Shown here one piece after another: positions 20,266 to 64,000 of a stretch of DNA of 64,000 nt. Location of the stretch: contig NZ_OY762934.1 in assembly GCF_963667045.1 (NCBI RefSeq), positions 3,302,501 through 3,366,500 on the forward strand, read 5' to 3'. The notes under the pieces were generated by a model that saw only the letters and a list, made by a program, of their open reading frames with translations, did no database searches and had not been told where the DNA came from. Made by a program: the position numbers and the translations under genes. The DNA is from an uncultured Cohaesibacter sp. (GTDB taxonomy: Bacteria > Pseudomonadota > Alphaproteobacteria > Rhizobiales > Cohaesibacteraceae). Each line of letters opens with the position of its first letter. Position 1 is the stretch's first letter.

Positions 20266-20355
20266 GGCGTTTGTCCCCTCGGGAATGGACGTGAAGTCTG
20301 CGAATTTCGTTGTCTGGTTGGCGTCAGGTCACTGGCTGCTTTTTACGGCAGCCCA

Positions 20356-21534: not shown

Positions 21535-21610
21535 TTGGGGTCTCGATCGTTGGGGCCTGAGGGCTCAGGCCGACGTTGCAGCTAAAGGTCTCGAAGGTCT
21601 TTGGCGCCGC

Positions 21611-23193
<1,583 letters not shown>

Positions 23194-23223
23194 CGGACCT
23201 CTCCTCTAATGGGGTGCGCCGTT

Positions 23224-23778
23224 TCAGGCGCACCTTTGCTGCAGGAACCGCTCGGACGTCAGCTCCATGATGACCTCGGGCACGGCTTCTCCCCGGGCGG
23301 CGCTGTAGCCCGTGCCACGGCGGACCTCTTCAAACCCGATATTTTTCAATAGGTTGATCGAGCGCGGGTTGTCTTCAAAGGCGGCGGCGCACATCTTTTC
23401 CGTCGGTTCCAGCGGCAGGTACCAGTCGAGCAGGCGGCGGACCGCCTCCTGCATGAAGCCCTTGCCCCAGAAGGCAGGCGCCAGCCAGTAGCCGATGGTC
23501 GGGGCAAAGATGCCGACGTCCCGTTCGCTCGAAGCCTTGATGCCGACGACGCCAATCAGGTTGTCGTCATGGGTGATGCCCAGGTTGATGCCTGCTATCC
23601 CCTTGTCCTGACTGGCGATCCAGCTTTGCGCGTCCTCCTCCGTATAGGGATGGGGAACGACGGCCAGATATTTCGTTACCTCAATGTCCTGACAATAGGT
23701 GCTGAGGTCGGGTGCGTCACTTGCCCTGAGAGACCTCAGGACAAGCCGTTCACTTACAAGAGCTGGAAACTGCATCAC
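23224..23778 (-). CDS. GNAT family N-acetyltransferase (RimJ/RimL-like), copy 2
   Basis: This 184-residue protein is a paralogue of the downstream gene, sharing FAPTIGYWL, FWGKGFMQEAVR and LLDWYLP. The N-terminus SERLVLRSLRASDAPDL is typical for RimJ-like enzymes, which acetylate protein N-termini or small molecules. Its start overlaps the stop of the upstream acetyltransferase (ATGA). Confidence 0.85.
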   Translation of the reverse strand: MMQFPALVSERLVLRSLRASDAPDLSTYCQDIEVTKYLAVVPHPYTEEDAQSWIASQDKGIAGINLGITHDDNLIGVVGIKASSERDVGIFAPTIGYWLAPAFWGKGFMQEAVRRLLDWYLPLEPTEKMCAAAFEDNPRSINLLKNIGFEEVRRGTGYSAARGEAVPEVIMELTSERFLQQRCA

Positions 23779-24455
23779 GCCGCTCCTTTCATGCGATATA
23801 TGTCAGGACCACTGTTTGGCCCGAAAGAGAACATCTCTTTTTGCCCCATGCCAGACCAGTTGCGCAGGGCCGACCAGACCCCCCGGTCCAGGCGGTAACG
23901 ATCGATCGGGATCATTCCCTTGTAATGCTGGGAATGGGCCATTCCGGTGCCGCTATACTGGAAACCGCATTTCTCGGCGATGCGTCGGGACGCGCCGCAG
24001 GAAACCCGGCAGCGCGCCACGAGCGCTTCCAGATTCGGCTGATTCATGTTCGGGCTCGAAAATGCAAAATCTGCCACAGCCTGAATGGCTCGTGTGGCGT
24101 AACCGTGCTGCCAATGGTCGCGCTTGATGATGACGCTGACTTCTGCCTGCTTTCGGTCTTCTTCAAGCTGCAGACAAATCACGCCAATCAAGGCCCCAGT
24201 CATATTGGTGATGATGAAGGGGAACTCGGTTGGGTCCGTCTTCTCGGTCTGATTGAGATACCAGGACTTCGCGCCGTCGGCGGAAATCGGCAGCCAGTTG
24301 CTGCACAGGTTCTTTGTCAGGGCCGGGGTATTGGCAAGGGCGACCAGCGGTTCCAGATCTGTACGAGCTGGATGGCGCAACAGGAAAGGTTTGATTTCCG
24401 AACCCTCTCTACAGTCAGGCTCGGTCTCACGCAAACTTTCATCTATTTCCAACAT
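23775..24455 (-). CDS. GNAT family N-acetyltransferase, copy 3 (divergent)
   Basis: A 226-residue acetyltransferase-like protein, more distant than the other two. It has the GNAT layout: FLLRHPARTDLEPLVALANTP near residue 24, a beta strand FIITNMTGALIGVICL, the acetyl-CoA loop KRDHWQHGYATRAIQ (about 114-128) and SRRIAEKCGFQ. The C-terminal 45 residues show no family match. It heads the run of three overlapping GNAT genes. Confidence 0.8.
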   Translation of the reverse strand: MLEIDESLRETEPDCREGSEIKPFLLRHPARTDLEPLVALANTPALTKNLCSNWLPISADGAKSWYLNQTEKTDPTEFPFIITNMTGALIGVICLQLEEDRKQAEVSVIIKRDHWQHGYATRAIQAVADFAFSSPNMNQPNLEALVARCRVSCGASRRIAEKCGFQYSGTGMAHSQHYKGMIPIDRYRLDRGVWSALRNWSGMGQKEMFSFGPNSGPDIYRMKGAA

Positions 24456-24484
24456 TTGTCCCTCCTATGGGGTTGGGTTGAGAT

Positions 24485-24521
24485 CAAAAGAAAAGGGAAG
24501 ATGGTGTCCCATCTCCCCTTT
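24485..24521 (-). terminator. Terminator downstream of rpmA
   Basis: On the minus strand an arm beginning AAAGGGGAGATGG pairs with CCATCTTCCCTTT with one G-T pair, followed by a T-rich TTCTTTTGAT. It would end rplU-rpmA messages in part before the acetyltransferase genes. Confidence 0.7.
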
Positions 24522-24615
24522 AATCTTTTGGCTCTCTTGCCCTTTTCAGGAGGGAGGCCTTCACGATTTTCCGGGGTCTGGGACACCGGCAAATCGTATC
24601 ATGTTCATGCCAGTG

Positions 24616-24885
24616 TTATTCAGCCGCTTCCGCCATCGGGTTCACGGACACGTAAGTTCGGCCATTCGCTTTGGTCGCGAACTCTACGTTGCCTTTGACG
24701 GTCGCAAAGATGGTGTGGTCTTTGCCCATGCCGACATTGTTGCCCGGGTGCCATTTGGTGCCGCGCTGACGAATGATAATGTTACCTGCGATAACAAGTT
24801 CACCGCCGAATTTTTTCACGCCCAGACGACGGCCAGCTGTATCGCGGCCGTTACGGGATGAACCACCTGCCTTTTTATGTGCCAT
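24616..24885 (-). CDS. rpmA: 50S ribosomal protein bL27
   Basis: bL27 reaches into the peptidyl-transferase centre with its N-terminus. The 89-residue product begins [20 protein letters not shown] and has [15 protein letters not shown], all as in the family. It lies 23 bp after rplU and is followed by a terminator. Confidence 0.98.
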
Positions 24886-24908
24886 TTTGGTGTCTCCTCG
24901 TCTCTAAC

Positions 24909-25514
24909 TTATTTCTCAGCGGCAAAAGCAGCTGCCTGCTCAAGCCAGTTGTCACGTTCGATGCGGCCCTTGAAGTTCAGCGCATCATCGATTTTGGCGA
25001 TGTCGTCAGCAGTGAAGGCTGCGATCTGAGCGAAAGAAGTGATGCCCAGAGCGTTCAGTTTACCTTCAAGAACAGGTCCAACGCCAGAGATTTTTTTCAG
25101 GTCGTCTTTTTCAGCCGGAGCGGTAAAGAGCGGAGCAGTGTCTGCTGCCGGTTCTTCCTTGGCCGGGGTTGCCTTCTTGGCAGCCTTTACCGGAGCCTTG
25201 CCGCCGGTCAGGATCTCGGAGATCTTGACGGTGGTGAAATACTGACGATGGCCATTGCGACGACGGGAATTCTGACGACGGCGTTTCTTGAAGATGATGA
25301 TCTTGCGGCCACGGCCCTGATCAACAATCTCTGCTGCAACAGATGCGCCTTCAACGAGAGGAGCGCCAACCTGTGCATCGCCTTCGCCGCCAACCAGCAG
25401 AACGCTGTCAAAGACAACGGTTTCGCCAGCTTCGCCTTCGAGCTTTTCGACCTTGATTACATCTTCGGGGGAAACAGTGTACTGCTTACCACCGGTTTTG
25501 ATGACTGCGAACAT
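24909..25514 (-). CDS. rplU: 50S ribosomal protein bL21 with C-terminal helix-hairpin-helix extension
   Basis: Residues 1 to about 103 are the normal bL21 ([12 protein letters not shown], then [15 protein letters not shown] near 77-91). Most bL21 proteins stop there. Here a Lys/Ala/Pro-rich linker (about 104-135) leads to a second domain with [19 protein letters not shown] and a second helical repeat, a helix-hairpin-helix type fold. Such extensions are seen in some alphaproteobacterial bL21 proteins; the role is not known to me. It is the first gene of the block and has a strong promoter about 166 bp upstream. Confidence 0.95.
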
Positions 25515-25679
25515 TTTTTTCTCCGTTCAATCCAGGCTCCGAGAATCGAGTTCTGCGGGTCTGTCTTTTTCAGTCAGTTGCAGGATAGCCCGTTTGGTCA
25601 ATGAAATCAGTTGTTTACCGAAGTTCGTCCAGACAAGCAAAAGGGCGCGGGATTTTCCCCACGCCTCGAGTTCGAGCGC

Positions 25680-25707
25680 AATATACCGGGAAAGCGCGCA
25701 GAGTCAA
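25680..25707 (-). promoter_or_regulatory. Strong sigma-70-type promoter for rplU-rpmA
   Basis: Read on the minus strand, TTGACT (25707-25702) and TATATT (25685-25680) are separated by 16 bp, or CTTGAC by 17 bp. The transcript would have a leader of about 160 nt before rplU, long enough for control by a ribosomal protein. Confidence 0.7.
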
Positions 25708-25818
25708 GAAAAAGTGGACGTTTCTGACGCGTTTAGAGCCACTTGACGGAGCGTTGATGCCATCCCACATGCGAGGGGCTTACATGCATTTTCTGCGAGA
25801 CGCAAAAGGAAGGGTGAA

Positions 25819-26256
25819 ATGCAAGGACCGATTATCGATCTGGCGCTCTATGGCCCCGTCTTCTGGGCGGTTTATCTGCTGCTGGCAATGGTATTCGTTC
25901 AGGCGCTGGTCGCTTCCGTCGCGCACCGGGCTCAGACGTCCTACGTCCCCGGCATTGTCGATGAAACGCTTGGCCCGGAGTCGTTCGTGTTTCGCAGCCA
26001 TCGCACCTTCGTGAATTCCATCGAGAATGTGCCATTCATGGTCGCGCTGATTGCGTTGGCGCTGGCGAGCGGCTTCAGTCCTTGGTGGCTCTCGCTGCTG
26101 AGCTGGGTCTATGTTGCCGCGCGAGCCTGTCACATGGTGACCTATTATCTGGTGGCGACGCGGAAGAACCCGAGCCTGCGGAGCTATTTCTTCATGCTGG
26201 CGGTATTTGCTCAGTTGGTGCTGTTTGTAATGCTTGGCCTCAATTGGTTGTCATGA
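25819..26256 (+). CDS. MAPEG family membrane protein
   Basis: This 145-residue protein has four predicted membrane helices (VFWAVYLLLAMVFVQALVASV, FMVALIALALASGF, LLSWVYVAARA and FFMLAVFAQLVLFVMLGL). The MAPEG signature SHRTFVNSIENVPFM (about 59-73) lies between the first two. Family members are glutathione-dependent trimeric membrane enzymes; the bacterial substrate is unknown. It is divergent from the rplU block and ends about 210 bp before tRNA-Ser. Confidence 0.85.
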   Translation: MQGPIIDLALYGPVFWAVYLLLAMVFVQALVASVAHRAQTSYVPGIVDETLGPESFVFRSHRTFVNSIENVPFMVALIALALASGFSPWWLSLLSWVYVAARACHMVTYYLVATRKNPSLRSYFFMLAVFAQLVLFVMLGLNWLS

Positions 26257-26385
26257 CGTGACCAAGGCATTGCCTTTGACGCTTGATGTCGGCTCGCTGC
26301 GCCTGTCAAAGGGGGAGGGCGGGAAAACTTTTAACAGGCATCTGGGGGCATTTTGTTGCGGGTGGGGATTTTTTCGATTGACGTC

Positions 26386-26414
26386 TTGAGCTTGGGGGCC
26401 GGGGTGTGTATGGT
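26386..26414 (+). promoter_or_regulatory. Possible promoter of tRNA-Ser
   Basis: TTGAGC and TATGGT are 17 bp apart, ending 53 bp before the tRNA. The position fits a tRNA promoter; the match is moderate. Confidence 0.4.
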
Positions 26415-26466
26415 CCGGCCACCTTTTTGAGCTTTCAATGACCACATTTAGCTCGAAATGGTTTGC

Positions 26467-26556
26467 GGAGAGGTGCCGGAGTGGTCGAACGGGGCGGTCT
26501 CGAAAACCGTTGATCGCGCAAGCGTTCCGAGGGTTCGAATCCCTCTCTCTCCGCCA
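26467..26556 (+). tRNA. tRNA-Ser (anticodon CGA)
   Basis: The 90-nt sequence folds as a class II tRNA. The acceptor GGAGAGG pairs with TCTCTCC (one G-T), the anticodon loop is CTCGAAA, and there is a long variable arm (GATCGCGCAAGCGTTC region). The T-arm is GAGGG-TTCGAAT-CCCTC, followed by discriminator G and an encoded CCA. It reads UCG codons. A broken integrase lies directly 3' to it, so it is a likely past attachment site. Confidence 0.96.
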
Positions 26557-26618
26557 TCTTATTGATATCATTAAACTAATTTCTTTTTTATGCGGCATGT
26601 TACAGGTTCTGACACAAA

Positions 26619-26933
26619 ATGTGCTTCAGAATGAGTGTCGCTATGCAGATGGCAAAGCCTGGTAAGACCATCGATTTCTATCGTGGTCAGTATCGCGCAA
26701 CGGTTACTGTGCCCGAGCGCTTGAGGCCCTTCATTGTCAAGCCTGACGGCACACCCCGCTCAACTTTAGAGAAACGTTTGGGCACAACGGACCCGAGGCA
26801 GGCCAAGAAGCGCTCCTACGCCATTCTCGCAAGCTTCTACGCCATCTTGGACGAGGCAAAGTCCCGGCGCGAGCAAGCAAGGGCAGAGCAGGGTGCTAGA
26901 AGCCGGCCCAGAAGCGATCAGCGAACTCCGTAG
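26619..26933 (+). pseudogene. Tyrosine-recombinase (phage/island integrase) N-terminal fragment
   Basis: About 100 codons encode what looks like the N-terminal arm-binding part of a site-specific integrase: KTIDFYRGQYRATVTVPERL, then KRLGTTDPRQAKKRSYAILA. The catalytic domain with its R-H-R-Y residues is missing. Near 26890 the sense appears to shift to another frame (EAGPEAISELRS) before stopping. The position 60 bp after the tRNA 3' end and the same orientation are typical for an island integrase. The identification rests on the general pattern of such N-termini. Confidence 0.6.
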
Positions 26934-52434: not shown

Positions 52435-52660
52435 TCACACCCGTCCCCTCTCAGCGTTTGCTTGCAAACGCCTGCCGGGTAGTGGATGGCTCACACCAGG
52501 CTCTTTACAGGCATGAGCCACAGCATCTCGCTTGCCGACAGGCGTCTCCTTTTTGAAGCGATATCCTTCAGGGCCGCATTGTCCAGCATCTGCTCGGCCA
52601 AAAGCTTTTGGGGCCTGGCATTCTCTTCTTCGCGTGTCTTCAGCTAGCGGGCATCCGACC
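52435..52660 (-). pseudogene. IS3-family transposase remnant (OrfA end / OrfB start)
   Basis: On the minus strand one frame reads TREEENARPQKLLAEQMLDN and AALKDIA, the leucine-zipper end of IS3-group OrfA. Next to an AAAAAGG slip site another frame reads FKKETPVGKRDAVAHACKEP GVS, the usual start of OrfB (modify: split over two pieces here). Everything else is missing. Two copies of GGTGTGAGCCAT lie 57 bp apart at the decayed end. The rest of the 430 bp gap between the DUF1826 and AbrB genes shows nothing else. Confidence 0.65.
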
Positions 52661-52781
52661 AGAATGGTTAGTGGCGAGATTGTGCAGGACCTCAAAACAG
52701 TTTTTGGTCAGATTTGATATTCGGTGGCCTCAGAGAATTGCCCTGATCCGCTTTAGGCGATAAAAGGGTGGGGCATTTTGC

Positions 52782-53912
52782 GTGAATGCCCCCATTCCCA
52801 TCAGTAGGAAACCGTCCGCCATGGCAGACGGTCTTGCGCCTATCCTTGAACAGATCAAAAGGCAGACTCAATTGAAGATATTGGCAAAATGGTGCCTTCT
52901 GATCCTCTTTTCCTTCGGGTTGGCGGCAAGCCTTGAATGGCTCGGGCTGCCTGCGGGGCTTCTCATGGGGCCGATGATCATTGCCATCATCTTTGCCGTG
53001 AAGGGGGCAGCGTTAAAGACATCCCAGCCACTGTTCGTCTTTGCTCAAGGGATTGTCGGCATCATGATTGCCAGCAATCTGCCGGTGACCGTGTTTGGTC
53101 AAATCTGGACAGACTGGTCCGTCTTTCTCTTTGGCACGATGGCAACTGTCATTGCTTCCACCCTGCTGGGCTGGGCGATGACCCGATCCGGCCTGCTGCC
53201 GGGAACAACTGCAATCTGGGGATCTTCCCCGGGTGGCGCAACACTCATGACCCTGATGTGCGAACCCTATGGCGCTGATATGCGGCTGGTTGCCTTCATG
53301 CAGTATATGCGGGTTCTGGGCTGCGTTGCGTCGGCGTCGCTGGTTGCCATGTATCTTGGCGTCCCCTCTTCGATGCATTCGGCATTCGAGCTGCCTGACA
53401 TGGCAAGCTGGATCTCGGCCATTCCGCCAATCATCGTCGCCTTCGTTGCTTCAGCCGTGGGGGTTCGATCACGCATTCCCGGAGGTACGATCCTGTTGCC
53501 GATGAGCATCGGGATCATCATCAAGATTTTCTGGCCGATCTCTCTGGACCTGCCCCTGCCGGTGCTTGCACTGAGCTATGCGATTATTGGATGGGGTATC
53601 GGTGCCCGTTTTTCGATGGAGACCCTCAGACATGCGGCCAAGGCTTTTACCAGAGTCCTCGGTTCGGTAATACTGCTGATCCTCATCTGTGCCTGCATCG
53701 GTGCCATTCTGACTGTCCTTACTGGCATTGATCTGCTCACGGCCCTGCTGGCGACAAGTCCGGGCGGGTTGGACGCAATCGCGATTATCGCGACCTCCAC
53801 CCATGTGGATATTTCTTTTGTTCTGGCGATGCAAACAAGCCGATATCTGGTTGTCGCCTTCGCTGCGCCTATTCTGGCCCGGTCATTGTCAGCAAAAGCG
53901 ACTGCTGCTTGA
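52782..53912 (+). CDS. AbrB family membrane protein
   Basis: A 376-residue protein with about ten membrane helices in two repeats. The pattern LGLPAGLLMGPMIIAIIFAV in repeat 1 and GWGIGARFSMETLRHA near the second is that of the AbrB (AbrB_dup) family. SSPGGATLMTLMCEPYGADM and TSPGGLDAIAIIATSTHVDI are the two matching signature loops, one per half. Family members are putative transporters or regulators of unknown substrate. The start is GTG at 52782; an ATG at 52821 is an alternative. Confidence 0.85.
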   Translation: MNAPIPISRKPSAMADGLAPILEQIKRQTQLKILAKWCLLILFSFGLAASLEWLGLPAGLLMGPMIIAIIFAVKGAALKTSQPLFVFAQGIVGIMIASNLPVTVFGQIWTDWSVFLFGTMATVIASTLLGWAMTRSGLLPGTTAIWGSSPGGATLMTLMCEPYGADMRLVAFMQYMRVLGCVASASLVAMYLGVPSSMHSAFELPDMASWISAIPPIIVAFVASAVGVRSRIPGGTILLPMSIGIIIKIFWPISLDLPLPVLALSYAIIGWGIGARFSMETLRHAAKAFTRVLGSVILLILICACIGAILTVLTGIDLLTALLATSPGGLDAIAIIATSTHVDISFVLAMQTSRYLVVAFAAPILARSLSAKATAA

Positions 53913-54070
53913 TACCATGACGATTGCGCGTGTGTGGGGATGTTGGCATCATCATCGCAGTGCCGCATTTGCCACTTCTCATTGCAAAGTTATGTGTCTA
54001 ACCGGGCTTGGTTGTTGCTTTTGCCTTGTTTCAATTCCTAAACTTGAAATTGAAAAGGGGAGGCCGGGCA

Positions 54071-57000
54071 ATGATCGAGGAAATGGCTGGAGACGGAATT
54101 CTTCAAGTTGCAGAAGGGTTTGAGATCGAGGCGGATATTGCGTCCGTTGTCAATTATGCAAGCTGGCAAAACTCGGTGCCGGTGATCTCATCCGTTCGGG
54201 TCAGGAACAATCTGGCCGAAGCAAGGCGGCGGCTGGTTCTCGAGCTCACCTTTTCTCCTGCTTTTGCCCGGTCCGTGCGCTGGACTCTGGATCTGGTTGG
54301 GGCGAACGAGGTGTTTGCCCTTTCCAATCCTGATCTCGAGATCGACGCTGACTATCTGAATGCTCTTGATGAGGCCGAGAAGGCCGTGGCACTCTTCAGC
54401 CTGAAGGACGGCGAGGGCGCAGTGCTGACTGAAGTCAGGAAGGAACTCAGACTGCTGGCGCGCGATGAGTGGGGTGGTTTTGACGGAATGGGCGGGCTCG
54501 CGGCGGCGTTCGTCATGCCCAATGACCCGGCGATAGCACCCATTCTCAAGAAGGCGGGTGATGTCTTGCAACGGTTCGGCCATTCGCCTGCGCTGAATGG
54601 CTATCAGAGCAATGACCCGGCGCGTGCCTATATGCTTGCTGCGGCGATCTGGTCGTCTGTTGCCGGTCTGGGGCTGACCTATGCAGAGCCGCCAAAGAGT
54701 TTTGAACTTTATGGCCAGAAGGTTCGGCGGCCAACCACGATCAGGGATCAGGGGCTGGCAACCTGCTTTGACACGACGTTGCTGTTTGCGTCCGCGCTTG
54801 AAGCGGTGGGGCTCAATCCGGTGGTGCTTTTGAAGACCGGCCATAGCTATTGCGGTGTCTGGCTGACCGAAAAGACGTTGCCGTCGCTGGTGGAGCGGGA
54901 CCCTATCGAGATTCGCAAGGCGCTGGCAGCGCGTGAGCTGATCGTGTTCGAGACAACCGGTGTCACGTCCCGCCCGGCCGATCCGTTCGAGCAGGCCATT
55001 GTGATCGGACAGGGCCATACCAACGAAAAGAATGCGGCCGATTTTGTCGGGGCGATTGATATTGCCCGCTCGCGTGCGTCGCAAATTCGCCCGATGGCCG
55101 CGCATCAGGCCATGGCGCAGACCGGCAAGGAGGGGGAGGCAAGCATCGAGGCGGCCGAGCTTCCCTTGCCCAAGGCTCCCTCGTTTGAAGACCTGTCCGG
55201 CCTGATCATCGAAGAAAAGCCAGCGACCGCGCAGGACCGCATTGCCCGTTGGCAGAACAAGCTGCTTGACCTGTCGCTCAGAAACAGGCTGCTGAACTTC
55301 AAGGCAACCAAACAGACCGTCCCTTTCCTTTGCCCGAACGTGCCAGCTCTGGAAGATCTGCTGGCTGACCAGAACCGGATTCGTGTCATCTCCCTGCCGG
55401 AGGAAAACCCGCACGGAGAGCGTAGCGACAGTCTGTTTCAGGAGCAGACCGGACGGGATCTGGATTATGAATTCGTCGTGCGGTCGCTTGAGCGCAGGGA
55501 AATTGCGGCGACGCTGGAAAAGAGCGAGCTGGACAAGCGTCTTACAGAGCTATATCGGCGCGCCAGAAGCGATATGACCGAAGGCGGCTCCAATACGCTC
55601 TTTCTGGCCGTCGGGTTCCTCAGGTGGAAAAAGACGGCAAGTGATGACAGGACCTACAAGGCCCCGTTGCTGCTCATTCCGGTTAAGCTGACGAGGCGAA
55701 GCGCCAATGCTCCCTTCTATCTGGAGCATCACGAGGATGATGTCAAATTCAACTCGACCTTGCTGGAGTTTCTCAAGAAGGACTTCAGTCTTGCCATGCC
55801 AGCCTTTGATGAGAGCCTGCCCAAGGACGAGAGCGGCATCGACGTTCCGCTGGTCTTTGAAACGATCCGGCGGGTTGTCCGGGATGTGCCGGGCTTCGAA
55901 GTGCTGGATGATATTGCGCTTTCGACCTTCTCCTTTGCCAAGTTCCTGATGTGGAAGGATCTGGTTGATCGGACCGATGAGTTAAGAAAGAACCGTGTTG
56001 TTCGTCACCTGATCGACAATCCCGACAAGGCGTTTGATCCGGGGCTCACGACGGATTTCCCTCAGGTCTTCGAGCTTGACAGCAAATATCGGCCAGCTGA
56101 TATCGTCACCCCGCTTCCCGCTGACTCATCCCAATTGAGTGCCGTCATGGGGGCCGCTGAAGGGCGCGACTTCGTGCTGGTCGGGCCGCCGGGCACCGGC
56201 AAGAGCCAGACCATCACCAACATGATTGCCCAATGCCTGGCGACGGGAAAAAGCGTCCTGTTCGTTGCGGAGAAAACGGCAGCACTCGGCGTTGTCTATC
56301 GGCGGCTCAAGGAACATGGCCTTGGAGACTTCTGCCTTGAACTGCATTCCAACCGGGCGGAAAAGAAGCAGTTCCTGTCGCAGTTGCAGGCATCCTGGGA
56401 AACCAAGTCTGATGCCAACCTGAACGAATGGGTGACTATCAATGACCAGCTGCAGGTGCGTCGCGACAGCCTGAACGACTATGTCTCTGCCCTGCACAAA
56501 CGGGCGGCATGTGGCCTCAGTGTTTTTGAAGCGCTGGGATTGTCGGTCAAATATGCCGATCAATACACGCCTCGGCTGAATTGGGACCCTTCCGCTGAAG
56601 TGGGAGAGCAAACGCTCCTGCAAATGAAAGAGACAATCCGAGATATCGCCAGCGTGCATCGTCAAGTGATACCCGTCCCAGCTCTGGAACTGGTCGGAAC
56701 GACTGAATGGTCGAACAGATGGGTCGGGGACCTGCGGCAGGCGGCGCAAAGCCTTGCGGTCTCTACGGATGTGTTGTTGGCGCGCGTGGTCGATTTTGCA
56801 CGGCTTGCCGGTCTTGATGCGCAACGGCAGTTTTCCCTGTCGGAACTGGAGCATGTGGTCTGGCTCGGAAAGCTGGTTGACTCGACTGCTGAAAAAACGC
56901 TGGCGGTGGTTTTCGAGGAGCAGCTGGACAGGATCCGGCAATCTGTTGAAGAATTGGCAGGATGCGTTGAGACTTTCAAGGCTGAACATGCAAGGCTCAG

Positions 57001-60000
57001 CGCCGTCTACGAGGAAGCCAGTATTGCCCGCATGCCGATTGACCAGATTGATCAGGACTGGCGTATGGCCTGCTCCCGGATGTGGCCGTTTTCCGTTTTT
57101 GCCAAAAGCCGGGTGCGGAAGTTTCTTCAGAGCTATGCCTTGACGGGGAAAGCCAATCCCGCCGATGAGGTGATGCCCCTGCAGAAGATGCAGTCTGCGC
57201 TCAAAACCATGGAGAGCCGGTCCGAAAGGCACCATTATCCCGCATGGAACGGAACCGAAACGGATACGGGGCACCTGAAGGCCTATTTTGATCTGGCGGG
57301 CAAGATCAGGACCGGATTTGAATCCATCGGGTATCTTGGCCATGAGGCCCTGACGAGCAATGGAGCCATGCAGTCTTGCCTTTCTGGCGGTAGCGCAACC
57401 CATCCGCTGCGCCTTCTGGCAAGGGATCTTATTGATGCGTGGGACGATTTCAGTGCCCGATTGGCGGCCTTCCGCAATGTGGCGAACACCGATGAGGATC
57501 AACTCGAAGGGGCTGCCATCCTGCCGCGACTGCATGACATGCTCGACGCGCTTGAGCAGAATGCTGGTCAATTGCAGGTCTGGACCGAGTGGCAGAAGGT
57601 CAAGGTAAAAGCCAATGCACAGAAGCTTTCCAGCTTTCTGGAGGCGGTCGAAGAGCACCGCATTTCGCATGATGATCTGGCATTGAGTTTTTCTGTCGCC
57701 TTTGCCAACTGGTGGCTGCCCGATGCCATCGGCAGATCGGATGTGTTGCGCAGCTTCAAGCGGTTCAGGCACGAGGAGATGCTGGAGCAGTTTCGGTTGC
57801 TCGATGACGAGGCCAGACGGGCTGCGGCTTCAAAGGTCCGATCAGCGCTCAATCATCATTTGCCAGCGCCCCATGAAGTGGCAAAACGGTCCGAGCTTGG
57901 TCTGCTGCGCTACCAGATGGAGCTGAAGCGCCCGAGCAAGTCCATTCGCGACATGATCGCTTCCATGCCGACCACCTTCAACAAGCTGGCCCCCTGCCTG
58001 CTGATGTCGCCGCTGTCGATCGCTCAATATCTGCCAGCCGGGCAGGCTTTGTTTGATGTGGTCATCTTCGATGAGGCCTCGCAGATCACGACATGGGATG
58101 CCGTGGGTGCAATCGCCCGAGGCAGACAGACCATCATTGTCGGTGATCCCAAGCAGCTGCCTCCCACCAATTTCTTTGGCCGGAATGATGACGATGACGA
58201 CGAAGAGCTTGAAGTCTACGAGAAGGATCTCGAAAGCATCCTGGATGAGGCCATTGCCTCGGGCCTGCCTTCCAAGCAGTTGAACTGGCACTATCGCAGC
58301 CGCAGTGAATCGCTCATCGCCTTTTCGAACTGGCACTATTATGGCAATCGTCTGATCACCTTTCCGTCGCCTGCGGTCAATGATCAGGCGGTCAAGCTGG
58401 TTCATGTTGCCGATGCGGTTTATGACAGAGGCAAGAGCCGCACCAACAGGGATGAAGCCCGCGAGATTGTCAGGATCGCGGTTGCCAAGATGCAAAGCTG
58501 GCTGCAGCTTGCCGAGGAGGATCGCCCCACTTTGGGTGTTATCACGTTCAACCAGCAGCAGCAGAGCCTGATACAGGATTTGTTCGATGCCGAGTTGCGC
58601 AGCAATCAGGATCTGGAATGGTTCTTCTCGGATGATCGGATTGAGCCAGCGATCGTCCGCAATCTGGAAAATGTTCAGGGTGACGAACGGGATGTGATGC
58701 TGTTCTCGATCACTTTCGGCCCGGATCAGGCTGGCAAGATGTCCATGTCCTTCGGTGCCATCAACAAGGATGGTGGAGAGCGGCGGCTCAATGTGGCGGT
58801 GACGCGCGCCAGAGCCGAGTTGCTGGTGGTCAGCACCATCACCGCTGACGTGATCGATACGTCGCGGACAAGGGCTCTTGGTGTTCAGCATCTGAAAGAA
58901 TTTCTGGCCTATGCAGAAAAAGGGTCTGCCTCCCTTCCCGCAGCGGTCAGCGGATCGGAAGGCGGGTTTGATAGCCCGTTCGAGGAAGCTGTCTCCGACG
59001 CCCTGCAAGCCAGAGGGTGGGCCGTCATCCCGCAAGTTGGCGTGTCCGGTTTTCGCATTGACCTTGGCATAGTGCATCCCGACAGACCGGGAGCCTTCCT
59101 CGCTGGCATCGAGTGTGACGGGGCGACCTATCACAGATCGGCAACGGCACGCGACCGTGACAAGGTGCGCGAGCAGGTTCTGCGCAATCTTGGCTGGGAA
59201 ATCCTCCGCATCTGGTCGCCGGACTGGTGGTATGATGCATCCAGAGTGGCGGGGGAGATACACCAAAAGCTTGATGGGCTCGTCGTGGCAAGCAGGGAAA
59301 AGGAAAAACGGAAAAAGGCTGAAGCCCGGAGTGACGGGGTTTTCGCAGAGGCTGATGCGGGAGTGGCCGTCCAGCCTGTGGCTGCAGAGGCGGCAGACAG
59401 CGCCGAGGCCTCTCTCCTGCCGATGGAGCCATCTTCGCGTGACCACCTGTCGGAAGAGCCTGCTGCAGCTCCTGCCAATCAGAACGCGCCATTTCAAGCC
59501 GTCAGAATAGCACAAGGCCCTGCGATGGCCAGTGAACCCCTCTATACCATAACGGACCTGCAATCCTTTGCGGTCGATCCGGACCGTTTCTATGATGTTG
59601 CCTATTCGTCCATGCTTGCCAGCCTGATAGACAGGATCGTCGAAACCGAGGGGCCGATCAAGGATACACTGCTCGCGCAGCGGGTGACCAAGGCCCATGG
59701 CTGGAGCCGAACAGGGAACCGTTTGAGAGAGCATATCTTTGCTCACTTGAAGTCCTATGACTTCTCAGAAGGCACGGCCGGACGCTTTGTTTGGAAGAGT
59801 GGGGCCAGGAAAGAGTTGGTGCCTTTCCGTAAATCACTGGACCGCGACAACCGGAGGCCGGTGAATGACATTTCGCTTGCTGAAATCGCTGGGCTGATCA
59901 GGGAAAAGCCCGGCCTTTTGCAACAGGACGAGCCGGTCTACGCGATTGCCCATGAAATGGGATATGACCGTGTTGCCAGTGCCATTCAGGCACGGCTTTG

Positions 60001-60052
60001 CGAGGCAATCGCGTATTATTCCGACCTGACCGACGAGCAGAAGGGCGTTTGA
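54071..60052 (+). CDS. Hhe-like defence protein: DUF4011 - SF1 helicase - PD-(D/E)XK nuclease - DUF3320
   Basis: A single 1993-residue protein. The N-terminal 310 residues are uncharacterised. A DUF4011-type region follows (about 365-600, RIARWQNKLLDLSLRNRLLN). The SF1 helicase has Walker A GPPGTGKS at 705-712, Walker B DEAS at 1334-1337, GDPKQLPP just after, and motif VI LNVAVTRARAE at 1573-1583. About 620 residues are inserted between its motifs. The nuclease at about 1633-1735 (FDSPFEEAVSDAL) has candidate residues Asp1664 and Glu1681 with Asp1683 (IECDG), like the MTES_1575/Vsr-like fold. DUF3320 is at about 1830-1960. This order matches the hhe class of single-gene anti-phage systems. 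The ATG at 54071 has GGGGAGG before it. Confidence 0.88.
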   Translation: MIEEMAGDGILQVAEGFEIEADIASVVNYASWQNSVPVISSVRVRNNLAEARRRLVLELTFSPAFARSVRWTLDLVGANEVFALSNPDLEIDADYLNALDEAEKAVALFSLKDGEGAVLTEVRKELRLLARDEWGGFDGMGGLAAAFVMPNDPAIAPILKKAGDVLQRFGHSPALNGYQSNDPARAYMLAAAIWSSVAGLGLTYAEPPKSFELYGQKVRRPTTIRDQGLATCFDTTLLFASALEAVGLNPVVLLKTGHSYCGVWLTEKTLPSLVERDPIEIRKALAARELIVFETTGVTSRPADPFEQAIVIGQGHTNEKNAADFVGAIDIARSRASQIRPMAAHQAMAQTGKEGEASIEAAELPLPKAPSFEDLSGLIIEEKPATAQDRIARWQNKLLDLSLRNRLLNFKATKQTVPFLCPNVPALEDLLADQNRIRVISLPEENPHGERSDSLFQEQTGRDLDYEFVVRSLERREIAATLEKSELDKRLTELYRRARSDMTEGGSNTLFLAVGFLRWKKTASDDRTYKAPLLLIPVKLTRRSANAPFYLEHHEDDVKFNSTLLEFLKKDFSLAMPAFDESLPKDESGIDVPLVFETIRRVVRDVPGFEVLDDIALSTFSFAKFLMWKDLVDRTDELRKNRVVRHLIDNPDKAFDPGLTTDFPQVFELDSKYRPADIVTPLPADSSQLSAVMGAAEGRDFVLVGPPGTGKSQTITNMIAQCLATGKSVLFVAEKTAALGVVYRRLKEHGLGDFCLELHSNRAEKKQFLSQLQASWETKSDANLNEWVTINDQLQVRRDSLNDYVSALHKRAACGLSVFEALGLSVKYADQYTPRLNWDPSAEVGEQTLLQMKETIRDIASVHRQVIPVPALELVGTTEWSNRWVGDLRQAAQSLAVSTDVLLARVVDFARLAGLDAQRQFSLSELEHVVWLGKLVDSTAEKTLAVVFEEQLDRIRQSVEELAGCVETFKAEHARLSAVYEEASIARMPIDQIDQDWRMACSRMWPFSVFAKSRVRKFLQSYALTGKANPADEVMPLQKMQSALKTMESRSERHHYPAWNGTETDTGHLKAYFDLAGKIRTGFESIGYLGHEALTSNGAMQSCLSGGSATHPLRLLARDLIDAWDDFSARLAAFRNVANTDEDQLEGAAILPRLHDMLDALEQNAGQLQVWTEWQKVKVKANAQKLSSFLEAVEEHRISHDDLALSFSVAFANWWLPDAIGRSDVLRSFKRFRHEEMLEQFRLLDDEARRAAASKVRSALNHHLPAPHEVAKRSELGLLRYQMELKRPSKSIRDMIASMPTTFNKLAPCLLMSPLSIAQYLPAGQALFDVVIFDEASQITTWDAVGAIARGRQTIIVGDPKQLPPTNFFGRNDDDDDEELEVYEKDLESILDEAIASGLPSKQLNWHYRSRSESLIAFSNWHYYGNRLITFPSPAVNDQAVKLVHVADAVYDRGKSRTNRDEAREIVRIAVAKMQSWLQLAEEDRPTLGVITFNQQQQSLIQDLFDAELRSNQDLEWFFSDDRIEPAIVRNLENVQGDERDVMLFSITFGPDQAGKMSMSFGAINKDGGERRLNVAVTRARAELLVVSTITADVIDTSRTRALGVQHLKEFLAYAEKGSASLPAAVSGSEGGFDSPFEEAVSDALQARGWAVIPQVGVSGFRIDLGIVHPDRPGAFLAGIECDGATYHRSATARDRDKVREQVLRNLGWEILRIWSPDWWYDASRVAGEIHQKLDGLVVASREKEKRKKAEARSDGVFAEADAGVAVQPVAAEAADSAEASLLPMEPSSRDHLSEEPAAAPANQNAPFQAVRIAQGPAMASEPLYTITDLQSFAVDPDRFYDVAYSSMLASLIDRIVETEGPIKDTLLAQRVTKAHGWSRTGNRLREHIFAHLKSYDFSEGTAGRFVWKSGARKELVPFRKSLDRDNRRPVNDISLAEIAGLIREKPGLLQQDEPVYAIAHEMGYDRVASAIQARLCEAIAYYSDLTDEQKGV

Positions 60053-60154
60053 CCCGCAAACTCTGGTATGGTGTGATGGGCCTGATCAGGCAAAGGAAAA
60101 TCACTGTGTTGCCAGCGGGGCGCAGGTTGAGGCTACCGGATGGAAAGGAGCGAC

Positions 60155-60496
60155 ATGCTGAGACGGATCATCATTGCGGGGCTGCTTTTCCTGCCGGTTG
60201 CTGCTTCGGCCACGGATCTCAAGGGCACCTACGTTCTCCCCGGTGGGAGCTGCACACATCCTCGCTCTGAAGGGGATCGGCTCATCATGACCGGGACCGG
60301 TCTATCCTTTGCGCATCTTGACTGTAGCTTTGGCAAGACGGCGTCGGTGGCCCGCATGAATGCCAGCCTTTATGATGCCACATGCAGGCAGGAAGATGTG
60401 CCCCAGACGACCCGTTTCTTCATCGCCCGAAGTAACGACGGGCTGACGATCTATTCACCTGATTTTGGCACGTTCATCGTTTCTCCCTGCCAATAG
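60155..60496 (+). CDS. Small secreted protein, unknown
   Basis: A 113-residue protein with a signal peptide (RRIIIAGLLFLPVAASA). The mature part of about 93 residues has four cysteines (GSCTH, LDCSF, ATCRQ, SPCQ), enough for two disulfide bonds, and alternating strands. AAAGGAG before the ATG at 60155 supports the start. No family recognised. It follows the large helicase gene by 102 bp in the same direction and is not obviously part of it. Confidence 0.65.
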   Translation: MLRRIIIAGLLFLPVAASATDLKGTYVLPGGSCTHPRSEGDRLIMTGTGLSFAHLDCSFGKTASVARMNASLYDATCRQEDVPQTTRFFIARSNDGLTIYSPDFGTFIVSPCQ

Positions 60497-60591
60497 CTCT
60501 CGGCCAGAGGGGCACCATCAGACAGGTAGCTCCGGTTTCATGCCCTGTTGCGGCAGCCAAAGTCACATCACGCCGGAAGGTCGGTATCATC

Positions 60592-61308
60592 ATGGATCAA
60601 GGCTCACACCAGAAATTCGATATGGCCCGTGCGCAGGACTATGCGCAGCAGGCACGCATTGCGCTCGCCGGTTATGATGCCTGTCACGAGCTTTCCGCCT
60701 GCATCCTGTCTGCGGCAATCGGGGAGCATCGCGATGCGCGGGTGCTGGTGGTCGGGGCCGGTGGTACCGGCGGCGAAATACTGGCTGCTGCCAAGCTTGA
60801 GGCAGGGTGGCGCTTTGTTGCGGTGGACCCCTCTGCGCCGATGCTCGATTTGTCTAGAGCGCAGATCGAGGCGGCAGGGTTTCAGGATCGGGTTGATTTT
60901 GTCTGTAGCGCGGTGTCCGATCTCGCATCAGACGCGGTTTTTGACGCGGCACTGGTGATTGGTGTGTTGCACCATGTAAAGGATGACGCTGACAAGGCTG
61001 CGTTGTTGCGCGATATCGCGGTGCGCCTGCGGCCGGGCGGATCGATGGTCCTTGCCGGGAATTATCGGGCCTATGCGTCCGAGCCACTGTTGCTGGCCGC
61101 CTGGGCCAACCGCTGGCGTCTGGCCGGAGCCGATGAAGACGAGGTGCAGCGCAAGCGCGATACGATCATGCGCGGTGCGGTGCCGCCTGAATCCGAGGAC
61201 AAGGTGGCGAGCCTGCTCATGGGGGCGGGGTTCGAAGCGCCGGAGCGGTTCTTTTCGAGCCTGTTCTGGGGCGCTTGGCATACCCGGCGCACAGCCGATG
61301 GTATCTGA
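60592..61308 (+). CDS. Class I SAM-dependent methyltransferase
   Basis: A 238-residue enzyme with the Rossmann SAM motif VLVVGAGGTGGEILAAAKLE (about 50-69), the acidic residue in FVAVDPSAPML, and later FDAALVIGVLHHVKDDADK and RLRPGGSMVLAG. The pattern is that of small-molecule methyltransferases (UbiE/type 11-12). The substrate is unknown. Confidence 0.8.
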   Translation: MDQGSHQKFDMARAQDYAQQARIALAGYDACHELSACILSAAIGEHRDARVLVVGAGGTGGEILAAAKLEAGWRFVAVDPSAPMLDLSRAQIEAAGFQDRVDFVCSAVSDLASDAVFDAALVIGVLHHVKDDADKAALLRDIAVRLRPGGSMVLAGNYRAYASEPLLLAAWANRWRLAGADEDEVQRKRDTIMRGAVPPESEDKVASLLMGAGFEAPERFFSSLFWGAWHTRRTADGI

Positions 61309-61327
61309 CGGATTGTTGGCAAAGAGA

Positions 61328-61370
61328 AACGCCCACCCCTGACAATCAGAGGCGGGCGTTGTCATTTTTG
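61328..61370. terminator. Bidirectional terminator between convergent genes
   Basis: AACGCCC (61328-61334) pairs with GGGCGTT (61354-61360). An inner CTGA/TCAG stem and T-rich runs on both sides (TCATTTTTG on plus, TTTCTCTTT on minus) suggest it serves both genes. Confidence 0.65.
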
Positions 61371-61452
61371 CTTTCAGTGGGAGGGGCCGATGGGCTTTGG
61401 CCTATAGGATGTCCCCCGCCTTTCATGACTGAAAGGCTTCCCGAAGTGGCGG

Positions 61453-64000
61453 TTAGTTCACCGCGCTGATCGGGAAGTCCAGAACGTTGCTCGAGTTGGG
61501 CACCGTCGGGTGCTGCTCGCCATTGGTCATCTGTGGCACCCGGCGCGAGGTGTAGCTGATCAGCTCCTGCACCGACGTGTAACCATTCTGGTCGCCAGCG
61601 TCCGCATCGGCCTTGCCATTCAGCCCTTCCAGCAAGGCTGCTGTGAAGGCACCGTGGCCACCGCCGAAGCTGGCGTCTTCCTGCGACAACTGAGCTCCGG
61701 TAGAAGACGCCAAGACAATGGTGCCGGTACCATCGGACAGGGCCTGCACCGCCTCCTCGTTGGAAATGCCGCCACGCTTGCGCGGACCGACCGCACCGGA
61801 ATGACAGATGTCCATCAGGAAGATGGCCTTCTGGTTGATCGGGCGACCGGACAGGAAGTCCCGGAACTTGTCGACCTGCATGCCCGTGTAGGGGCGTGTC
61901 TTGTCGCCGTCATAGGTGACGAGATACAGACGCTGTTCGTTGTCTTGCACGCCATGGCCTGCGATGAACAGGACGATGACGTCTTCTGCCGAAGCCTGTC
62001 TGAGGAAGTCGTTCATCTCGACGCGAATATCCCGCTCCGTGGCCTGATCGTTGACAAGGACCTTGGTGTTGACCTTGCCATAGAGCACGCCTTCCTGTGC
62101 CTTGAAGGTCTTTTCCAGATCCAGCGCATCCTTGTGGGCAAACTCCAGATCCTGAGAGCTGATCTCGTATTTCGAGATGCCGACGCCAAAATACCAGAGC
62201 TGCGTGGTCTTTCTGACCTTGGGCTGGGCCTTAACCTTCCGGTTGATCTCTGCTCGTTGGGTCAGGACGCGGGCGTCCTTGTAGACCAGACTTGCCTCGA
62301 TCACGTTTTCGCCTTCCCGCAGTTTGAACTTGCGGTCGATGCCGACGATTTCGCCGCCATCATAGACGGGTTCCTCGTCGAAGCCACGAGTGCGGATGAC
62401 AACGCGACCGTTGAGCGAATATTCGAACGCCGGATCCGGCAGATCGGCCGAAGATTTCTCGACCCGCAGGCGCAGGACATATTCGTCACCGTCAACGGTG
62501 GCCTTGGCCGGAGAATCGAGCGAGACCTTGTAGGGAACGTTGAACAGGTCGGGATCGACATCGGGTTTTTCCGGCTCGACCGGCACCGGCTGATCATTGC
62601 CGCCGCCACCCTTGATCAATCGGCTGAGGCGGTCCTGGATGATGCGCGGGCGCTCGAACCGGCTCTTGAGGGCCTCGAATGGCAGGTAGTTGTCGCCAAG
62701 CGACCAGAATACGCCCTTGGTGCCGTTGAGCGAGGATGTGAATTCTCCGCTCGGCGCATAGGCGATCCATTCGTCGTCGTTCTTCACCAACAGGGTCAAC
62801 TGCCGCTCGAAGCTGCGCAGATCGAAGTAGATCAGCTCATTGGAGCTGGTCAGGGCCAAAAGGAGGTTGCGGCTTTCATCGGCCGAAATCGAGGCCAGTG
62901 TGCCGCCGAAGAAGACCGAACGATCGCCAAGGCGCATCATGTCGCGTGACCATTCGATCTTCTGGCCGTTGTCGAGCTTCAGGGTCCAGACCGAGGTGGC
63001 CGGTTCCCAGCCGATGTAGCGTCCGGAGCGGGCATCATAGCCGCGCCAGCCGCCGCCAACCTCGAGCATTTCGATGCGTGACGGGTCGTCTTCGTTGAAT
63101 CTGAGATTGTTCAATGGCTTGCCATTGGTGATGGACTTCACCTCATCGCCCGACCTGACGTCGAAGAGCCGCGTGACGCGTGAATAGGTGTAGTCATGGC
63201 CGTAGCCATCTTTCCAGGCGGTGGTGACGCCGACCAGTCCTTCCTTGTCGCTGATGGCAACGCCGCTGAAGAAGCTGCCATAGACTGCATCATAGCTGAG
63301 GCTTTGGGTGACGATGTCGAACCGGGTGCTGGAGATTACCTGAAGGGACTGGCGGTCGCGAAGCTCAAGGATGGCCTTGGTGCTCTTGTCGCCTGATCCT
63401 TCGGGGCGGCCCAGCAACAGGATATACCGGTCGCTCTGGGTCAGATAGGTCACGTCAAAGTCGATATGCGCCTTCTTCTCTTCCTGAAAGTCGTCGGCGT
63501 TGAAGACGACGAGATCATTATCCGTGGATATGGTGTATTGCGTCGCCCCGTCCTTGCTGAGGCGGCGCCAGCCACGCTCTGTCGAGGTGCGCAGTGGCTG
63601 GAGGCGGCGTCCGGTGGCGAGATCCCAGACGTAACTGCCACTGCTGTCGCGGGAGGTGACATAGCCATCACGCGTGTTGAGGGTCAGCCCCTTGCCGCGT
63701 GGCGAAAGGCCGGTCATCTCGGAGATGGGGCTCAAGGTCCTGGTGTCGTACCATTCGATATGTTCGCTTGCACCGGCCGAGAAGCTGTTGCCGTCGGGTG
63801 AGAAGGTGATGCCCAGATCTTGCGGTGCCTCGCGCGCGTTGAGAATGTCGCCTTTTTCCAGATCGACCAGCACCAGACCTGTCTTGCTGTTGAAGGTGTC
63901 GTTCATCAGCACCCATGGTCTGGAGGGATGGCTGACAATGCGGTTTGGAATTACCGGCGAGCGCATGCGGCTGACTTCACGCCAGTCGCGGGTATCCCAG
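61453..64000 (-). CDS. Caspase-like (C14) peptidase with beta-propeller-like N-terminal region, 5' end outside window
   Basis: The frame is open to the right edge (WDTRDWREVSRM before the first ATG), so at least 848 residues are in view and the start is missing. The N-terminal 500 residues contain WD-like strands (YVWDLATGRRLQPL, IWFDLRSF-like YFDLRSFERQL), a probable beta-propeller. A beta-sandwich follows. The C-terminal peptidase begins TTQLWYFGVGISKYE. It has the catalytic His in FIAGHGVQD (codon 61954-61956) and Cys in LMDICHSGA (codon 61804-61806). Such proteins cleave others on a signal and occur in stress or defence settings. The natural target is unknown. Confidence 0.88.
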   Translation of the reverse strand, partial: WDTRDWREVSRMRSPVIPNRIVSHPSRPWVLMNDTFNSKTGLVLVDLEKGDILNAREAPQDLGITFSPDGNSFSAGASEHIEWYDTRTLSPISEMTGLSPRGKGLTLNTRDGYVTSRDSSGSYVWDLATGRRLQPLRTSTERGWRRLSKDGATQYTISTDNDLVVFNADDFQEEKKAHIDFDVTYLTQSDRYILLLGRPEGSGDKSTKAILELRDRQSLQVISSTRFDIVTQSLSYDAVYGSFFSGVAISDKEGLVGVTTAWKDGYGHDYTYSRVTRLFDVRSGDEVKSITNGKPLNNLRFNEDDPSRIEMLEVGGGWRGYDARSGRYIGWEPATSVWTLKLDNGQKIEWSRDMMRLGDRSVFFGGTLASISADESRNLLLALTSSNELIYFDLRSFERQLTLLVKNDDEWIAYAPSGEFTSSLNGTKGVFWSLGDNYLPFEALKSRFERPRIIQDRLSRLIKGGGGNDQPVPVEPEKPDVDPDLFNVPYKVSLDSPAKATVDGDEYVLRLRVEKSSADLPDPAFEYSLNGRVVIRTRGFDEEPVYDGGEIVGIDRKFKLREGENVIEASLVYKDARVLTQRAEINRKVKAQPKVRKTTQLWYFGVGISKYEISSQDLEFAHKDALDLEKTFKAQEGVLYGKVNTKVLVNDQATERDIRVEMNDFLRQASAEDVIVLFIAGHGVQDNEQRLYLVTYDGDKTRPYTGMQVDKFRDFLSGRPINQKAIFLMDICHSGAVGPRKRGGISNEEAVQALSDGTGTIVLASSTGAQLSQEDASFGGGHGAFTAALLEGLNGKADADAGDQNGYTSVQELISYTSRRVPQMTNGEQHPTVPNSSNVLDFPISAVN

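Follow-up and report, generated by a model that had tools for sequence, protein, structure and literature searches.

A ProA-family helicase-nuclease of an uncultured Cohaesibacter species with a probable transglutaminase-like N-terminal domain

Introduction

How a DUF4011 helicase-nuclease discriminates between phage and self is an open question for this group of proteins. One such gene lies at positions 54071..60052 of a 64,000-nucleotide (nt) stretch of DNA, hereafter the window, from an uncultured marine Cohaesibacter sp. (RefSeq assembly GCF_963667045.1, contig NZ_OY762934.1), which maps to 3302501-3366500 of a single-contig genome of 5.24 Mb. An original prediction, made from the letters alone, described a single-gene anti-phage candidate of the Hhe type with 310 uncharacterised residues at its start. 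The analysis reported here assigns the protein to the known anti-phage family ProA and locates in those residues a probable domain of transglutaminase-like type, whose Cys-His-Glu triad is invariant. By sequence, a motor, a nuclease and a conserved thiol-enzyme-like triad are combined in one chain. The added content consists of this probable N-terminal domain, the joint decay of domain and nuclease within a single clade, and an SbcCD-like gene pair next to proA in relatives. No earlier description of these three points appeared among the papers listed by a literature search outside which most subscription papers lay, and the work that defined ProA may already contain them. The triad and the gene pair provide two testable ideas for phage/self discrimination, and the N-terminal domain could help decide when the nuclease cuts.

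Architecture and family of the protein

The open frame extends from a TTG at 54008 (2014 amino acids, aa) through 60052; all features of the gene given below are on the forward strand. The ATG at 54071 is the likely start, in preference to the TTG. It yields a proA-like product of 1993 aa and is preceded, at a distance of 7 nt, by the ribosome-binding-like stretch AGGGGAGG (54056..54063), as read from the sequence.

Pfam recovers DUF4011 at residues 397-568 (55259..55774; E 1e-47), followed by a helicase in two halves. The first half is matched by AAA_19 at residues 688-738 and carries the Walker A motif GPPGTGKS at residues 705-712, with Lys711 (56183..56206; Pfam, motif and alignment). The best stretch of AAA_11 covers residues 1323-1366, where motif and alignment place Walker B as FDEAS at residues 1333-1337 (DEAS 1334-1337; 58067..58081) and where GDPKQLPP occupies residues 1358-1365. 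AAA_12, the second helicase half, spans residues 1389-1588 (58235..58834; Pfam, motif and PDB profile) and includes motif VI as VTRAR at residues 1577-1581. The PD-(D/E)XK nuclease MTES_1575 (PF18741) follows at residues 1637-1734 (58979..59272; E 2e-33), passing the Pfam cut-off with 114.8 against 38.2 bits; its catalytic acids Asp1664, Glu1681 and Asp1683 are present in the motifs FRID (1661-1664) and IECD (1680-1683). DUF3320 closes the series at residues 1838-1887 (59582..59731; E 9e-17). Pfam domains at these E-values and in this order exclude chance. Hidden Markov models of DUF4011, MTES_1575 and DUF3320 all match, and the predicted succession of DUF4011, split Upf1-type superfamily 1 (SF1) helicase, nuclease and DUF3320 is borne out. 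The claim of intact Walker A/B, motif VI and nuclease residues likewise stands, with Lys711, Asp1334/Glu1335, VTRAR and Glu1681 all in place, and domains and motifs together uphold a predicted single-gene helicase-nuclease of anti-phage type.

The helicase halves match SMUBP2, SEN1, UPF1 and DNA2 in a PDB profile search; this likeness to Upf1-type structures, together with Walker A/B and motif VI, identifies an SF1 Upf1-like helicase. Lys711, Asp1334 and Glu1335 are conserved in 151/151 aligned rows, a set that includes repeat copies of some genes. Position 711 is Lys in 169 of the 180 rows of a wider set; the other 11 comprise three gaps, seven rows cut by the edge of the fetched stretch and one true Val (locus L241), and two of the seven edge-cut rows, on inspection, had the 711 region misaligned or missing. 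Between the helicase halves lies an insert of residues about 745-1300 (56303..57970), poorly conserved and without a believable Pfam match. From the first helicase block to motif II, mean column identity is 50% (31 of the 50 non-redundant sequences). The large uncharacterised insert described in the prediction is real.

The Hhe label fared differently. The NCBIfam model for anti-phage protein ProA (NF058533) scores 2121 bits against a cut-off of 1500 and matches at full length, N-terminal domain included (model 1-1903 on residues 28-1967), whereas the Hhe model (NF042953) reaches 811.9 bits, under half of its cut-off of 2000, with its best stretch at residues 1111-1757. In PADLOC, the best match is the candidate model PDC-S37 with 1218 bits over residues 387-1982 (model positions 6-1532 of 1550, the N-terminal domain lying outside the model), against 549 bits for Hhe. 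An identity as Hhe with an incidental N-terminal extension can draw on the shared order of DUF4011, helicase and nuclease and on the fact that the Hhe models do match, with 812 bits (NCBIfam) and 549 bits (PADLOC). DUF4011, by NCBI's description, and the matched helicase-nuclease part are common to both, and the available part of PMC10925250 gives Hhe a Upf1-type SF1 helicase like that of the window protein; the system is named 'Gao Hhe' in the accessible text of PMC13249269. Against this identity stand the missed cut-off and the layout of Hhe itself. Positions 117-478 of the Hhe model map to about residues 477-833 of the window protein, which puts the start of Hhe, in model coordinates, near residue 360 of ProA and leaves Hhe without an N-terminal domain of about 360 residues. 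Unlike Hhe, which starts near DUF4011, the window protein has 396 residues ahead of it. Hhe genes over the cut-off occurred in 3/398 sampled genomes (L159-L161), with the model covered from position 1, and a profile of the N-terminal domain gave no match in these three genomes (G307, G215 and G419), at most six first-look candidates being scored in each. The Hhe identity is therefore very improbable and was rejected on the missed cut-off and the missing N-terminal domain. By model matching, the protein belongs to ProA, not Hhe. No publication describing anti-phage ProA was found by title or abstract among the matches listed, in a search outside which most subscription papers lay.

A probable transglutaminase-like N-terminal domain

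The N-terminus is most likely a transglutaminase-like (papain-like) thiol-enzyme domain, predicted at residues about 100-350 (54368..55120). Conservation and profile alignment point to Cys232 as the nucleophile (motif LATCFDTT; 54764..54766) and to His258 as the catalytic His (TGHSYCGVW; 54842..54844). Glu294 (IVFETT; 54950..54952) is the predicted third triad residue by conservation and motif resemblance. Cys232, Asp234, His258, Trp264 and Glu294 are invariant in all 50 sequences of a non-redundant set (<85% identity). In a broader collection of 110 domain sequences, freed of exact duplicates while keeping near-duplicates and including six rows from outside ProA, Cys, His and Glu/Asp occur together in 107. 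The three exceptions are a truncated match (L147) and two members of the altered-triad clade considered below (L220 and L145).

The probable fold assignment draws on profile comparison together with the motif. Comparison of 32 Transglut_core domains, drawn from the same genome and from relatives, with a profile built from residues 100-350 (A3) gave an hhalign score of 32.4, a probability of 36% and a single-comparison E of 3.8e-4. In the controls, 12/12 other protein segments scored at most 23.5, reversals scored 16.2 and 15.5, and 100/100 column shuffles scored at most 26.6. With relatives added, a broader profile reached a score of 43.8, a probability of 85.5% and an E of 5.7e-6, whereas its best-scoring shuffle out of 100 reached 26.2 and its reversal 14.7; part of this gain is due to the six rows from outside ProA that the profile includes. 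The similarity thus exceeds shuffled, reversed and other-segment controls, and both alignments pair Cys232 and His258 with the Cys and the His of the transglutaminases. Within the superfamily (PF01841, PF04473), these two residues align with the catalytic pair, and the transglutaminase motif WISFDPT resembles IVFETT by eye. ProA differs in having about 30 extra residues before the third triad residue.

Several observations weigh against this assignment. Glu294 was left unaligned by hhalign, and the probability of the first profile match was just 36%. For residues 1-397 of the window protein, Pfam returned nothing believable and, with the HMMER filters on, listed no transglutaminase up to E 10; the superfamily models thus miss the domain, although such detection is a convenience check and does not define the superfamily. 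A PDB profile search found no transglutaminase match for the N-terminus. PDB sequence searches with the window protein and with A1, A2 and A3 found no relative of it either, yielding helicase matches only and, for A3, three chance-level matches. Scanned member by member, the 50 sequences matched DUF553, named 'Transglutaminase-like domain', in 21 cases (best E 0.014) and Transglut_core in two (0.0038). DUF6197, a family without assigned function, was matched in 33/50 (best E 8.8e-5), and evidently unrelated families in 13-14/50 at similar E-values (AftA_C 0.037, FxsA 0.022). The single-member transglutaminase matches are hence near noise. In L056, the DUF6197 match covers 140-224 of the scanned piece, approximately residues 150-234, a stretch that precedes the Cys motif and extends to it.

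With A3 as the query, 33/398 genomes gave matches (E <= 0.01), nearly all of the strong ones in long ProA-type frames. Matches outside ProA comprised proteins of 413 and 538 aa (L151 and L152) and TPR/NHL proteins (L154 and L156 by Pfam, and L155), whose aligned part reads like GDCDD...GH...LEAT. A marginal match at the Cys motif of a DUF3857 protein (L157) had an E of 0.008 per genome; at that level, 398 genomes would be expected to yield about three matches by chance. Transglut_core scores 22.2 of the required 23 bits in that protein, just under the Pfam cut-off. The frames of 413 and 538 aa (L151:8250-9488 and L152:7464-9077, both on the reverse strand) are separate relatives of the N-terminal domain; signal-peptide-like stretches can be recognised in them by eye, and Pfam assigns them no believable family.

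Joint alteration of the triad and the nuclease

Whether the predicted triad bears on the nuclease can be considered in a wider set of 124 distinct rows (<98.5% identity), in which genes split into two frames count as two rows. Triad and nuclease acids are both intact in 100 rows. The nuclease acids are present in 15 rows whose N-terminal region is absent from the alignment, three rows show the triad but lack the nuclease part, and three have both sites altered. A split gene (L240) has an altered triad in one piece and an altered nuclease in the other. No altered triad with an intact nuclease occurs among rows showing both sites. Altered triads occur in four genes, each of which also has an altered nuclease site. 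In G084 and G029, the triad reads Ala/Met/Asp and position 1681 is Ile; the split gene of G493 carries Val/Met/Asp with the same Ile, and the gene of G459 has Ser232 with His and Glu kept, next to Ser1664, Asp1681 and Val711. Aligned letters were inspected for L239, L240 and L241 and for the genes of G084 and G029. The four genes form one clade with a support of 1.0 (FastTree, residues 400-1599, midpoint root).

A coupling of the two sites has points against it. One row (L067) combines an intact triad with an altered nuclease residue. The co-loss is confined to one clade and hence one line of descent, though the replacements differ. L241 keeps His and Glu yet has also lost Lys711, and this further loss means that general decay fits as well as coupling.

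The same clade bears on a non-enzymatic alternative, in which a relative of the transglutaminase fold would bind a phage trigger or partner, the triad would be kept for folding, and helicase and nuclease alone would catalyse. It is possible, if doubtful: the four-gene clade retains the domain despite the loss of the triad, and Pfam finds no enzyme family in the window N-terminus, whereas the retention of Cys, His and Glu/Asp in 107/110 domain sequences and the change of the nuclease site wherever the triad changes argue for an enzyme.

The altered clade occurs in one genus, with L158/L220/L238 representing one gene, L145/L225/L239 another, and L240 and L241 the remainder; one member is without the Walker A Lys. 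A second ProA-like gene is present in G084 and matches the N-terminal domain strongly.

Genes next to proA in relatives

Neighbouring genes were clustered for 82 loci, comprising 49 non-redundant loci, 20 from further genomes, eight from plasmids, four others and the window. One pair recurs, an SbcD-type metallophosphatase and a large SbcC/YhaN-type ATPase (Pfam), resembling SbcCD/Mre11-Rad50-like pairs. In a two-step BLAST, an SbcC/YhaN-like frame flanks proA in 24/82 loci, or 16/58 when each flank has to span 4 kb or more. The corresponding counts for an SbcD-like frame are 16/82 (one of them a 123-residue piece) and 8/58. In nine loci (L007, L011, L018, L022, L026, L028, L031, L055 and L230), the SbcD-like frame lies on the same strand as proA and begins 0-17 nt beyond its final codon, with start codons set mechanically. 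Among eight plasmid loci, annotation places an exonuclease or a YhaN/AAA gene near proA in three and neither in the other five.

A general role for the pair is disfavoured by the 42/58 loci that have 4 kb or more on either side of proA and no SbcC-like neighbour, and by the window, where neither an SbcC-like nor an SbcD-like gene is near proA; the adjacency counts themselves are raw. In this respect, the window copy differs from other members of its family and sits behind an AbrB-like gene instead. Two rhizobial plasmid loci, L230 and L236, both among those with SbcD/YhaN neighbours, have multiubiquitin, ThiF and DUF6527 genes near proA.

Defence-type neighbours were compared between 106 proteins from 17 of 20 fetched ProA loci (126 before L215, L228 and L229 were dropped) and 106 control proteins from 15 of 19 hand-placed stretches in 14 of the same 17 genomes. 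The control was drawn from 214 candidates, of which 130 were taken at random before L206-L209 and two of L205 were dropped. Genes were called as longest open frames, some of them spurious, and the families compared were 25 of 94 (case) and 25 of 51 (control) among the matches listed. Case matches (E <= 1e-20) included Dsr1, type III and type I methyltransferases, a type I specificity subunit, a type IV restriction enzyme, AbiD, a GajB-like family (two members), a reverse transcriptase (two) and a homing-endonuclease model (two). The control contained defence-type families too, which tells against a special association: type I/II methyltransferases, SNF2/DrmD/BrxH-type helicases, DrmA and RtcR-type regulators (four). 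The defence-type neighbours of ProA relatives are accordingly suggestive and do not amount to an enrichment test.

One relative, L213, has a proA gene of 2212 aa whose adjoining genes we take, from their sequence, to be merR, ihfA and pheT. The accessible part of PMC10250203 describes a core defence hotspot of Pseudomonas aeruginosa, cDHS1, with merR and ihfA at its edge and with a large DUF4011 gene as the core gene flanking it on the right. An identity of this flanking gene with ProA is a lead only. Next to ProA forms of about 2.2 kilo-residues, L213:4991-5995 and L224:13060-14061 (both on the reverse strand) hold a similar gene of about 335 aa with MGWKGT near its start. Further ProA forms of roughly 2220-2354 aa (L073, L076 and L233; frame or gene length) keep DUF3320 and have their extra length elsewhere.

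Proposed mode of action

Upf1-type motors use ATP to travel along single strands. PD-(D/E)XK domains are nucleases, and transglutaminase-like domains break or form amide bonds in proteins. In a scheme combining the three, DUF4011 and the Upf1-like SF1 motor would load on and move along invading nucleic acid, probably exposed DNA ends or intermediates of replication or repair, delivering the MTES_1575 nuclease to it. The substrate of the thiol-enzyme domain would be a protein: ProA itself, which it would process, or a protein on the nucleic acid, which it would remove or cleave. This action may permit cleavage by the nuclease. In some relatives, the adjacent SbcD/SbcC-like pair would supply DNA-end processing; the Cohaesibacter copy, without the pair, may act alone or with the cell's own repair enzymes.

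This reading of the gene as a ProA-family anti-phage machine in a single polypeptide, with motor, nuclease and thiol-enzyme domain acting as described, seems to us evenly poised between right and wrong. Its strength is limited by the single-member Pfam matches, which are near noise, and by the changes in the altered clade, which also fit general decay. We infer that the ProA-like gene protects its host. A bolder version remains tentative and doubtful. It supposes a two-enzyme switch, in which a transglutaminase-like thiol protease or acyl-transferase would gate the nuclease, with both sites kept or lost together, and in which ProA and a dedicated SbcCD/Mre11-Rad50-like pair would in many lineages form a multi-gene system that senses DNA ends. 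If so, the clade with altered triad and altered nuclease would represent a repurposed regulator or a decoy.

Distribution and genomic surroundings

A role in defence also has to be weighed against one in housekeeping or repair. The ProA model and the N-terminal profile each match once in the genome itself. The closest named relative, L002 (Cohaesibacter haloalkalitolerans), is 96% identical, and the ProA cut-off was passed in 3/18 genomes of the genus. Matches were found in 449 plasmid records, with at least 80% covered in 67. L002 and L083 apparently represent the same region, as do L004 and L082, and such rows are not independent. L084 and L085, from the same genus, hold related genes that fall under both the ProA and Hhe cut-offs and are without the N-terminal region. 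A similar relative of 1572 aa in another genome of the genus (L187:9548-14266, forward strand) is also under both cut-offs and without this region.

A housekeeping or repair helicase-nuclease is unlikely. It would accord with the P. aeruginosa gene, a core large DUF4011 gene flanking a defence hotspot in the accessible part of PMC10250203 (its identity as ProA being a lead only), with the SbcCD-like repair genes at some ProA loci, and with the Pfam scan of the window's neighbours, which found no defence gene and so counts against a defence role. The gene is instead patchy in the genus (3/18), as is the N-terminal domain in the phylum sample (33/398); it is present on plasmids, and the NCBI model names the family anti-phage. 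With defence-type genes also next to some relatives, homologues are not confined to core genes without defence neighbours. This check is limited in that the control set also held defence-type genes and the scanned neighbours in the window were not defence genes.

Directly upstream of proA lies an AbrB-like membrane protein gene (52782..53912, forward strand; Pfam and homology), which is also adjacent to proA in L002. The two genes form a block at 52651..60116 (forward strand), its left edge set where homology to L002 resumes and its right edge where homology to genome G012 begins, 64 nt past the proA stop. AbrB-like gene and proA occur together in the window genome and in L002, and G012 is without both here. 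From window position 60116 on, G012 keeps hyp118, a methyltransferase and a caspase gene, and has other genes on the left side; given this difference on the left, an exact empty site is not shown. Promoter- and terminator-like sites were about as numerous as in shuffles.

Window positions 19561-26560 and 52651-64000 are close neighbours in L002, 1.6 kb apart, and lie 26 kb apart in the window. The intervening 26 kb (26560-52650) are missing at this place in C. haloalkalitolerans. By Pfam, this stretch encodes FeoB, Rrf2, MFS, methyltransferase, CobW and DUF1826 proteins; the remainder was read by eye. The segment 19561-26560 ends just after a tRNA-Ser (cga) at 26467-26556, which is followed by an integrase-like N-terminal fragment recognised by eye (region 26467-26933). 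No second full copy of the tRNA-Ser end was found in the window, where the best other match by E-value had 13 bases. Near the window end, 61453-63966 (reverse strand) encodes a caspase (Peptidase_C14) protein with a weak WD40 match; its frame is 1627 aa in L002, and the part in the window is 96% identical in G012.

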